Source: Crocinitomicaceae bacterium (GTDB lineage: Bacteria > Bacteroidota > Bacteroidia > Flavobacteriales_D > Crocinitomicaceae). From it: a DNA stretch of 64,000 bases. The notes below the pieces were generated by a model. The model saw nothing but the letters and a program-made list of their open reading frames with translations. It had not been told where the DNA came from and did not search any database. The stretch is taken from the NCBI GenBank assembly GCA_002709305.1, contig PAQM01000025.1, positions 1-64,000 of the forward strand, given 5' to 3'. Made by a program: the position numbers and the translations under genes. Positions 28,636-32,026 of the stretch are shown here, in pieces; position 1 is the stretch's first letter; the number at the start of each line of letters is the position of its first letter.

Positions 28636-30054
28636 TTAAAGTATTTTTTCTTCTTTTCTATAACCAAATAACTCATAGTACTTAATCGCTTTTACAACCT
28701 GTTCAGGAACATCTTCTTCCCAACTAGAAGCGCTGGCTTTAATTTTTGAGAGAACGTCATCAGACATAATACCAAGCAACTTGGAGTCAAAATTATCAAA
28801 CTTAGCTAACTTTCGATTATCCTTCATATATTCAAGTAAACCATTTAAATTTTTAGGTACAATAAAATTATCTAAAGAATAAAGCTCACCATTCTCAACA
28901 TTATTTGCAGGATATACATACATAATAACGTTATTTCCAAAACCTCGTCCAAAAGCTTCTAATAAACCACCAGATAAATTATCATAATAACTCTCATCAA
29001 ATATTGTTTGAAGATTATAGATACCAGCAATAACACCCATCCTAGCACCTTTAGCTATAGTAGATAAATAATCAACCATTTTATAATGTTTTAAGTAATT
29101 ACTTATCATAACAGTATATCCCAATGTCCCAAGCAATTCTGCTCGATCTACAAAGTCCTTGTCTAAAATTTTACCATCTGCTGTAAGGTCTTTTAATGTT
29201 AATTCAAAAACAACCGCAACATTTTCTTTTTCTATTCCTTCTTCATTTAAAAATTGTTCGGTCCCCCTCTCAATCATATCAATATGAACCTTTGTTACAG
29301 GTCGGAATCTTCCACGCATTAATAAAATGTTTTTCTTATACAAGGCAGAAGATGGTTGAATAACATTTCCAGTCAAATCAAACATTGTTGCATCAGTAAT
29401 TCCTCGCTTAACCAGATTTAGAGCAATAATCCTATTATCTACATCCTCAAAATCAGGTCCAGAGAAACTAAGCATATCAATTTCAATTTTTTCTCTAGGA
29501 AGTCGTTGAACTAAATTTGATAAAAACTCATCTAAATCATTATGATGGAAATAAGCGGAATAGATTAAATTAACACCTAATATTCCTAATGACTCTTGTT
29601 GAGCTTTATGACTGTTATCATGCATTTTAACATGAAGTATTATATCATTTATAGGTCCACCTAATGTTAATTGAAAGCGCATTCCTATCCATCCATGTCC
29701 TTGATTCGTTTTATGATAATTTAGTGATTCAACAGTATTACAAAATGCAAAAAATCTTTTTTCCTTATTCTGATCAGAAAGACGTTCATTTAAAAGTTTG
29801 TACTCTTTTTCAAGCATAGTTTTTAAACGCTCTTCAGAAACATATCTAGAAGCCTCACCATACATAGAATCAGAAATTTTCATATCATATGCCGACTGAG
29901 TATGTGCAATAGTTCCAGAGCTACCTCCTGCCTTAAAAAAATTTGCAGCTACCTCCTGCCCAGCACCAATTTCTGCAAAACAACCATAAATATCTGGGTT
30001 TAAATTAATTTTAAGTGCCTTATCTTCTGTTGTCAATCTTCTTTCTTCTATCAT
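28636..30054 (-). CDS. Conserved uncharacterised protein (widespread 470-480-residue family)
   Basis: ATG 30054 is chosen over the track's TTG, giving 472 residues. It has no signal peptide or obvious membrane helix. Blocks typical of the family as I recall it are YGCFAEIGAGQEVAANFFKAGG near the start, RFFAFCNTVESLNYHKTNQGHGWIG, LHVKMHDNSHKAQQESLG and MYVYPANNVENGELYSLDNF. Database names for relatives (such as TonB-dependent receptor or nicotinate-nucleotide adenylyltransferase) do not fit: it has no signal peptide and no visible HxGH-type nucleotidyltransferase motif. I see no catalytic motif I can name. It is the upstream partner of the WYL regulator. Confidence 0.7.
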   Translation of the reverse strand: MIEERRLTTEDKALKINLNPDIYGCFAEIGAGQEVAANFFKAGGSSGTIAHTQSAYDMKISDSMYGEASRYVSEERLKTMLEKEYKLLNERLSDQNKEKRFFAFCNTVESLNYHKTNQGHGWIGMRFQLTLGGPINDIILHVKMHDNSHKAQQESLGILGVNLIYSAYFHHNDLDEFLSNLVQRLPREKIEIDMLSFSGPDFEDVDNRIIALNLVKRGITDATMFDLTGNVIQPSSALYKKNILLMRGRFRPVTKVHIDMIERGTEQFLNEEGIEKENVAVVFELTLKDLTADGKILDKDFVDRAELLGTLGYTVMISNYLKHYKMVDYLSTIAKGARMGVIAGIYNLQTIFDESYYDNLSGGLLEAFGRGFGNNVIMYVYPANNVENGELYSLDNFIVPKNLNGLLEYMKDNRKLAKFDNFDSKLLGIMSDDVLSKIKASASSWEEDVPEQVVKAIKYYELFGYRKEEKIL

Positions 30055-30094
30055 AATCAATATATATAATTACAAAAAAAAACAAAAATATGTA

Positions 30095-31165
30095 TTATGG
30101 TTCCTGAAAATCAGGATTATTAATAAATGTATAATCTGTTAATGTTAGTAAAAATTTTTTAATTAAATCTTTCTCAAATGCATCTAACTGAACTCCTCCT
30201 TGACTAGCAAATTCAATTAAAGGGTCAATTGTTGGGCTAATTTGAATACCAGAAGAATAATGCTCTATTACTTCGTCTAATGATGAAAATCTTCCATCAT
30301 GCATATAAGGGGCAGTGAATTCAATATTTCTTAATGTTGGAACCTTAAACTTTCCATTGTCATTTGGATCTCCTGTTATTAACCCACGACCATTATCTGC
30401 AAAATTAAGATCTAAACCATTATTACTAAATTTCTGAACCTGCATTAACGGCCCATTATGACAGTGAAAACAATCTGCGCCATTTAAACTCTTAAATAAA
30501 TCATAACCTGCTATTTCATCTGGAGTAACTGTTAAGTATATATTTTGCTCTAATGAATTTAGAGGTAAATTATTCTCAACCTTATATATGACATCATATT
30601 TAGAAGATCCCGAAATCATTGTTCTTATGAATTGAGCAATTGCTTTCGCTGCATGTGTAGAATCAATATCAGTAGTTTGAAATGCTTCAAAGAACATATT
30701 TTTATAGGACAAATCAGATTTTAGAGTCAAAATAACATCAGTCCAATTATCATGCATTTCTATTGGATCTTCAACAGGTATTAATATTTGTTCTTCTAGA
30801 GTTTTAACTCTTCCATCCCAAAAGAAAAAATTATTCCAACCAACATTAATTAATGCCATTGAATTTCGATTGCCTATAGTTCCATTAACGCCAAAAGAGT
30901 ATTGATTTGAGTCTGAAAAAGAGGCGGATGGAGCATGGCATGTTGCACAAGAGATAGAATTATCTCCGCTTAACTGTTTCTCATAAAATAATTTCCTCCC
31001 TAATTTTACGCCCTCAACAGTCATAGGATTATCTTCTGGAATTTCCATTTCTGGAAAATGACTAGGTATTTGAAGAATATAGGGAGTAGGAGTATGATTT
31101 ACTTTATCCTTTTTACAGGATAAAAAAAACATAATGAAAAGAAATAAAAGCAACAAATACTTCAT
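30095..31165 (-). CDS. Di-haem cytochrome c peroxidase-family lipoprotein, MbnH-like
   Basis: ATG 31165 (MKYLLLLFLF) replaces the track's TTG; the signal peptide has lipobox FFLSC. Two haem-binding CxxCH motifs are present, SCATCHAPSA and DCFHCHNGPL. The peroxidase/MauG-family motif APYMHDGRFSSLDEV lies between the second haem and the C-terminus. The start overlaps the stop of the MbnP-like gene by one base (TGATG). In methanobactin-type loci MbnH is a di-haem enzyme that converts a Trp of partner MbnP into kynurenine for copper binding. The pairing here points to that role rather than plain H2O2 removal. Confidence 0.82.
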   Translation of the reverse strand: MKYLLLLFLFIMFFLSCKKDKVNHTPTPYILQIPSHFPEMEIPEDNPMTVEGVKLGRKLFYEKQLSGDNSISCATCHAPSASFSDSNQYSFGVNGTIGNRNSMALINVGWNNFFFWDGRVKTLEEQILIPVEDPIEMHDNWTDVILTLKSDLSYKNMFFEAFQTTDIDSTHAAKAIAQFIRTMISGSSKYDVIYKVENNLPLNSLEQNIYLTVTPDEIAGYDLFKSLNGADCFHCHNGPLMQVQKFSNNGLDLNFADNGRGLITGDPNDNGKFKVPTLRNIEFTAPYMHDGRFSSLDEVIEHYSSGIQISPTIDPLIEFASQGGVQLDAFEKDLIKKFLLTLTDYTFINNPDFQEP

Positions 31166-31917
31166 CAAAAAAGTGTTAATGATTCTTTAAAATTTGTCAT
31201 AATTTTATCGCTTAAAACCTCTTGACCTGTTGATGTATGAGAAGTATGCTCTATTTTTAGGTCGATTGAGGAAGATCCAGTATCTAAAAAATGAAGTAAA
31301 TCAAGTTTTAATGAAAATACATGTTCATCACCAATATTCACCCAATTAATATTATCAAATGATAAACTCTTTAAATTTTCATCTTTACCTACATGAAAAA
31401 TAACGTTATGATCAAATAAAGAGATTCCATCTTGGATCGTATCTACCTTTGCTTCTATTTTCACAAAAATATAACCCGGATTCCAATCCCAATGCATATC
31501 ATTTGAATTAGAAATATAAAGCCAACTCATTGGATTAAATCCCACAGGATCATTATGATTCAGTGTAGGACCAACTCCTAGATTAGCTTGAATATCCTCA
31601 TAATAATCTTTATCTCCAGGACTTTGCATTAAAGTGTCTCCACGTAAACGATAATCAAATAAAGCAACATCCTTTAATAAATTCAACCCATTTCTTATAT
31701 CTTCCATATAAAACTTAATTTCTTTAAACTTCACATCATAACCTTCAGGTGTTTGATAAATAGAATCTAAAAAAAGAGTCTCACTTCCAAATGTTGGTTG
31801 AACAGTAATTCTTAATAAATCAGAAGAAGGAGTATGCACTTCTGGTTCTTCAGGTTTACAAGCAATTAATAACAAAGAACTAAAAGATAAAAGAAATAAT
31901 TTTAAGAAAACATTCAT
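31165..31917 (-). CDS. MbnP-family lipoprotein, probable copper-binding partner
   Basis: ATG 31917 gives a clean lipoprotein signal (MNVFLKLFLLSFSSLLLIAC), so the track's start nine codons upstream is dropped. The mature 230 residues resemble the MbnP family: FKEIKFYMEDIR, NLGVGPTLNHNDPVG, MHWDWNPGYIFVKIEA and a beta-rich C-terminus. The HWDW segment supplies Trp residues that could be the site changed to kynurenine, and nearby His residues could bind copper. It is followed, with a one-base overlap, by the di-haem MbnH-like gene. No methanobactin precursor is seen. Confidence 0.72.
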   Translation of the reverse strand: MNVFLKLFLLSFSSLLLIACKPEEPEVHTPSSDLLRITVQPTFGSETLFLDSIYQTPEGYDVKFKEIKFYMEDIRNGLNLLKDVALFDYRLRGDTLMQSPGDKDYYEDIQANLGVGPTLNHNDPVGFNPMSWLYISNSNDMHWDWNPGYIFVKIEAKVDTIQDGISLFDHNVIFHVGKDENLKSLSFDNINWVNIGDEHVFSLKLDLLHFLDTGSSSIDLKIEHTSHTSTGQEVLSDKIMTNFKESLTLF

Positions 31918-32026
31918 ACCCAAATTTACAAAATTATATACCAATAATTATTATAACTTTAGAACAAATAAGTAACTCCAAAATTTCACAAAAAAGATAG
32001 ATTTATCTTGATAATAACTTTTTACT

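Follow-up and report, generated by a model that had tools for sequence, protein, structure and literature searches.

The best-described counterpart of the locus reported here is the MbnP/MbnH pair of Methylosinus trichosporium OB3b, represented by PDB entries 7l6g and 6e1c, the latter of which we take to be Methylosinus MbnH. Work by Manesis et al., in PNAS in 2021, reportedly showed that the first Trp of the WxW motif of MbnP becomes kynurenine, and is said to have found Cu(I) coordinated by one His, one Met and a solvent molecule near the kynurenine. A second point of reference is MauG, a di-haem enzyme of the same superfamily as MbnH that oxidizes Trp in a partner protein, pre-methylamine dehydrogenase, and whose axial ligand is given as Tyr294 in descriptions of the enzyme. 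CorA/CorB of Methylomicrobium album and MopE/SACCP of Methylococcus capsulatus are similar in that a surface copper(I) protein contains kynurenine and has a relative of the di-haem peroxidases alongside (PMC3912023). In CorA, the copper site consists of Kyn62, H64 and H114 (PMC3912023). MbnP/MbnH pairs outside methanobactin operons have been in print since 2013: conservation of the pair extends well past the methanobactin producers (PMC3621798), and MbnPH-like genes sit in copper operons (PMC9426467).

Here we describe such a pair in a Crocinitomicaceae genome. It lies in a stretch of 64,000 nucleotides that was analysed as a whole and is referred to as the window. The pair is genuine but not unusual; it is an ordinary member of a known family, such pairs being both known and common in this bacterial group.

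Identification of the gene pair

The first-pass annotation had described an MbnP-like lipoprotein with an HWDWNPGY region that overlaps a di-haem lipoprotein of the peroxidase family. The reading frames, lipoboxes, CxxCH motifs and matches to PF20243 and PF03150 all bear this out (Table 1). In MbnP, the lipobox reads LLIAC and HWDWNPGY comprises residues 142-149; in MbnH, the lipobox reads FFLSC. The two genes share a TGATG sequence, in which the stop codon of mbnP (TGA) and the ATG of mbnH overlap by one base.

The Pfam PF20243 score of MbnP (62.5 bits) exceeded the gathering cut-off of 27. By contrast, its score against NCBIfam TIGR04052 (MbnP_like_WxW) was 26.2 bits versus a curated cut-off of 140. 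TIGR04052 was originally named after its four Cys; that motif is absent from the window protein, whose sole Cys is the lipid-bearing Cys20. Similarly, the best NCBIfam match of the di-haem protein, TIGR04039, scored 246 bits, below the curated cut-off of 362.85. The remaining Bacteroidota members scanned likewise fell under the cut-offs of both models, which were presumably chosen to suit proteins closer to their proteobacterial and myxobacterial seeds. We classify the window proteins as an MbnP-family lipoprotein and an MbnH-like CCP_MauG protein rather than as TIGR04052 and TIGR04039 equivalogs.

Table 1. Features of the mbnP–mbnH locus (window coordinates)
Feature	Position	Strand	Basis
MbnP-family lipoprotein	31165..31917	(-)	250 aa; PF20243 62.5 bits, AlphaFold fold match 7l6g, 54-sequence alignment
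C20 codon, lipid-anchor Cys	31858..31860	(-)	sequence; invariant in 54 orthologues; acidic KPEEPE next
H121 codon (NH-DP), second candidate His	31555..31557	(-)	opposite NHSN region of 7l6g
M141 codon, candidate copper-ligand Met	31495..31497	(-)	aligned with Met of GMAWNW in 7l6g
W143 codon, first Trp of WxW, predicted kynurenine precursor	31489..31491	(-)	aligned with first Trp of WNW in 7l6g
H175 codon (HxG), candidate copper-ligand His	31393..31395	(-)	aligned with HVG of 7l6g
TAAATTTG box, resembles Bacteroidota -7 element	31921..31928	(-)	directly upstream of mbnP start
MbnH-like di-haem lipoprotein, CCP_MauG family	30095..31165	(-)	356 aa; PF03150 185.7 bits; best PDB 6e1c
Haem-binding CATCH (C73-H77) of MbnH	30935..30949	(-)	motif in sequence
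W116 codon, place of superfamily inter-haem Trp	30818..30820	(-)	aligned with Trp in 6e1c, 1iqc
Haem-binding CFHCH (C232-H236) of MbnH	30458..30472	(-)	motif in sequence
Y303 codon, Tyr at classical peroxidases' axial Met	30257..30259	(-)	Y in 6e1c; M in 1iqc, 3o5c

We also inspected the region upstream of mbnP. The pattern TAnnTTTG occurred within 110 bases upstream of the gene in 63 of 77 sequences, versus 9.4 in shuffles, and 49 of the matches fell in the -15 to -11 bin. In most orthologues, only a few bases separate the end of the TAAATTTG box from the ATG; if it is a -7 element, the transcript would have a very short 5' leader or none. No metal-regulator site was found upstream of mbnP by eye or among common 8-mers, the -7-like box being the only notable element.

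Fold of MbnP and its candidate copper ligands

PDB searches with a single MbnP sequence or with the orthologue profile found no MbnP, and a family-wide profile was needed. A 25-sequence profile of diverse Bacteroidota members matched 7l6g (3.1e-11), with the M-x-W-x-W motif and the HxG His of the two coinciding. The title of this entry is 'metallo-mystery pair system four-Cys motif protein'; the fold search gives it the name Methylosinus MbnP. An AlphaFold model of the window protein, built from 54 orthologues, had a mean pLDDT of 92.7. The only PDB matches to this model at E ≤ 0.001 were all six chains of 7l6g (E 1e-5 to 1e-6, probability 1.00; TM ∼0.5; ∼16% identity over the structural alignment), the next PDB match having an E-value of 0.34. 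CorA and MopE chains were absent among the PDB fold matches listed for the model. According to these data, the window protein is predicted to adopt the MbnP fold.

The first-pass annotation had proposed aligning the Trp and ligand positions with characterized MbnP. This comparison upheld its assignment: the WxW motif's first Trp, the Met before it and the His of HxG each align with a counterpart in 7l6g and are invariant in orthologues. More specifically, M141, W143, W145 and H175 are invariant in the alignment of 54 orthologues, and H121 is nearly so. Across 100 family copies, W143 is kept in 97, H175 in 98, M141 in 84 and H121 in just 20. The candidate copper-ligand His is H175 or H121, which sequence comparison does not separate.

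The pair thus resembles that of Methylosinus in gene arrangement, fold and the positions of the M-x-W-x-W and HxG motifs. It differs from the OB3b pair in that MbnP lacks the four Cys and both proteins are lipoproteins. CorA and MopE use Kyn-x-His and a second His; in the window protein, the motif reads M-H-W-D-W, and the second residue after W143 is not His.

Conservation and joint inheritance of the pair

To evaluate the pairing, we considered 80 named relatives, each with a close match to the window MbnH; many are labelled Crocinitomicaceae, Fluviicola or Flavobacteriales. The mbnP–mbnH order was kept in 79 of the 80, the remaining locus (L141) being cut by a contig end, and every motif read among them was M-[HY]-W-x-W. 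The same gene order at 79 of 80 orthologue loci indicates that the pairing is beyond chance. In a wider sample of 297 Bacteroidota genomes holding 100 MbnP copies, an MbnH-like gene lay directly downstream of 99 copies. This count includes the upstream MbnP of two loci (L107 and L118) at which tandem MbnP genes share one MbnH. In both loci, that upstream MbnP lacks the equivalent of W143 and the HxG His.

These data bear on the reading that an unrelated lipoprotein happens to lie beside an ordinary cytochrome peroxidase. The failure of single-sequence PDB searches to find MbnP would fit such a reading; against it, the Pfam, profile and fold searches all return MbnP, and mbnH follows mbnP in 79 of 80 relatives and for 99 of the 100 copies in the phylum sample. 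With the order conserved and the fold matched, we regard incidental adjacency as already refuted and assign it a negligible likelihood.

The flanks of the pair are conserved as well: a helicase gene lies on one side in at least 70 of the 80 loci; on the other side, 77 loci have a 474-aa gene and 72 have a WYL regulator. This synteny indicates a vertically inherited core locus rather than a mobile cassette and rules out a binning error. PF20243 was found in 65 of 66 sampled Crocinitomicaceae genomes, in 185 of 199 of the order and in 78 of the 297 of the phylum. Moreover, in 18 multi-pair genomes, the distance matrices of MbnP and MbnH correlated at 0.786 with true partners. With partners swapped within genomes, the correlation averaged 0.595 and peaked at 0.751; none of 2000 swaps reached 0.786. 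MbnP and MbnH have been inherited jointly.

MbnB had no match in the genome even at E ≤ 1. The first-pass annotation's description of the pair as stand-alone, outside a methanobactin cluster and in this respect unlike that of OB3b, is therefore right, but such a location is normal for the MbnP/MbnH family (PMC3621798, PMC9426467) and nearly universal among the Crocinitomicaceae.

The di-haem partner

The best solved relative of the window MbnH is 6e1c ('Di-heme enzyme'; 5.8e-46), ahead of the classical peroxidases. As in 6e1c, there are two haem sites, with a Trp and a Tyr at equivalent places. The PF03150 fold, the two CxxCH motifs and the inter-haem Trp are shared with the di-haem cytochrome c peroxidases 1iqc and 3o5c, from which the window protein differs in having Tyr303 for the axial Met and an obligate MbnP partner gene. 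The equivalent of Y303 is Tyr in 88 and Phe in 8 of 97 aligned MbnH sequences; the inter-haem Trp position varies among other MbnH-like proteins. The match to MauG was weaker (∼1e-19), and the substrate protein and product (TTQ) of MauG differ. Y303, as in 6e1c, together with W116 at the inter-haem Trp position, favours an oxidase of the MauG/MbnH type over a plain peroxidase.

It might nevertheless be argued that the di-haem protein chiefly removes peroxide or acts as a redox partner, with MbnP as a docking protein or electron donor that has no functional copper site. PF03150 is indeed common to bacterial cytochrome c peroxidases, which score at E 1e-24 to 1e-36, and no copper genes were recognized among the examined neighbours of the pair. 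However, the Tyr at the axial Met of the peroxidases, the fixed set of Met, Trp and His in the partner MbnP and the joint inheritance of the two proteins run counter to this role, and we consider it unlikely.

Proposed function

The conserved residues suggest a function for the pair. We consider it probable that MbnH oxidizes W143 to kynurenine and that the modified MbnP provides a Cu(I) site with M141 and H175, serving to hold or scavenge copper. Points against this reading are the ∼16% identity to Methylosinus MbnP and the TM-score of only ∼0.5, the scores of both proteins below the NCBIfam cut-offs, the missing four Cys and the lack of recognized copper genes among the examined neighbours. 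We infer the following course of events. MbnH, as a MauG-like di-haem lipoprotein, would form high-valent haems from peroxide or oxygen, and these would oxidize W143 of MbnP, the first of the two Trp in its M-x-W-x-W motif, to kynurenine. The modified protein would bind one Cu(I) near the kynurenine, most likely via M141 and H175. MbnP, a predicted outer-membrane lipoprotein that possibly faces outward, may hold copper, or scavenge it, for copper enzymes of the periplasm, for example a haem-copper oxidase. The genome encodes subunit I of a haem-copper oxidase, indicating a need for copper. This subunit was also considered as a phylum-wide correlate of MbnP and was uninformative, being found in 286 of 297 genomes.

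In a variant of this scheme, MbnP is still modified by MbnH, but the modified protein carries some other metal or acts as a redox cofactor and does not hold copper. We know of no copper measurement for any Bacteroidota member, which counts in this variant's favour. Consistent with it, some subfamilies have Asn-His or Trp in place of the ligand Met, and CorA structures hold a calcium ion as well (PMC3912023). As M141 and H175 match the motif of the copper-binding Methylosinus MbnP, we judge another metal or a redox role improbable.

Cell location

Immediately after its lipid Cys, MbnP reads KPEEPE, which resembles a lipoprotein export signal; the Bacteroidetes consensus for such signals is K-(D/E)2 or a similar sequence (PMC5080379). 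Across orthologues, the region after the Cys is acidic in MbnP and basic in MbnH (C-[KR]-K-D-K-V). In 52 pairs, the net charge of this region was -0.6 in MbnP versus +1.4 in MbnH (Wilcoxon p 7e-9, with relatedness ignored). An export-signal-like pattern was present in 27 of 57 MbnP and in 0 of 73 MbnH sequences, the automatic lipobox call having placed the Cys wrongly in a few MbnP. These compositions suggest that MbnP is outside and MbnH inside.

A broader and more tentative proposal, which we hold to be possible but doubtful, is that non-methanotrophic marine and freshwater Crocinitomicaceae possess kynurenine-Cu(I) proteins, produced by a dedicated MbnH, as a core trait passed on vertically, and use them to scavenge copper at the cell surface. 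The substrate would be displayed outside, through an acidic export signal here and, in the paralogue class, through a type IX tail, and the enzyme would remain inside; with that arrangement, modification would precede export. If this proposal is true, kynurenine-based copper sites are not an accessory peculiar to methanotrophs but routine in a large aquatic group within the Bacteroidota.

Second pair and family variants

The genome holds two CCP_MauG genes, both adjoining an MbnP. The second MbnP/MbnH pair, which the first-pass annotation missed, lies at L001:161-2115 (G000:C6, ∼87.9-89.4 kb). Its MbnP is extended at the C terminus by ∼80 residues. In its MbnH, a Tyr occupies the inter-haem Trp position, where many relatives have Arg. 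Relatives of this MbnP class score as type IX sorting domains (Por_Secre_tail); in the genome's own L001 MbnP, the score for such a tail fell short of significance.

In a wide subfamily (L239-L267, L097, L105, L109 and L124), the motif is M-x-W-P-(n)-GGGYH[FY]-M: the second Trp is lost and the first kept. MbnH is retained in nearly all of these members. That the first Trp persists where the second is lost agrees with the first being the functional one. In some members, Trp replaces the ligand Met.

At one related locus, in a genome of the same class (L114:3289-5119, equal to the L238 locus), Phe and Val replace both motif Trp, and MbnH keeps all of its haem motifs. Not every such pair can therefore work via Trp modification, and this locus constitutes a natural exception and a natural test of MbnH without its target Trp. 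More generally, the natural variants of the family, which lack the second Trp or both Trp, have another residue for Met or carry a type IX tail, would offer a means of testing which residues MbnH needs.

Genomic neighbourhood

The 474-aa protein flanking the pair (window 28636-30060) is encoded in the same direction, starting ∼34 bases after mbnH, and is conserved in many members of the class. It had no match in Pfam, NCBIfam or the PDB. We considered this gene as a third partner. Because it lacks a database match and is also present in relatives without an MbnP match (G021, G029, G049 and G053), it was treated as a syntenic neighbour.

At three other loci (L064, L068 and L075), a YHYH-domain protein (PF14240) with a type IX tail is encoded beside MbnP/MbnH and is a possible third partner; a similarly placed gene occurs at L120 and L125. 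The window itself also encodes type-IX-tailed proteins, among them, at positions 139-2718, a C10-family peptidase with a Spi inhibitor propeptide and a type IX sorting tail.
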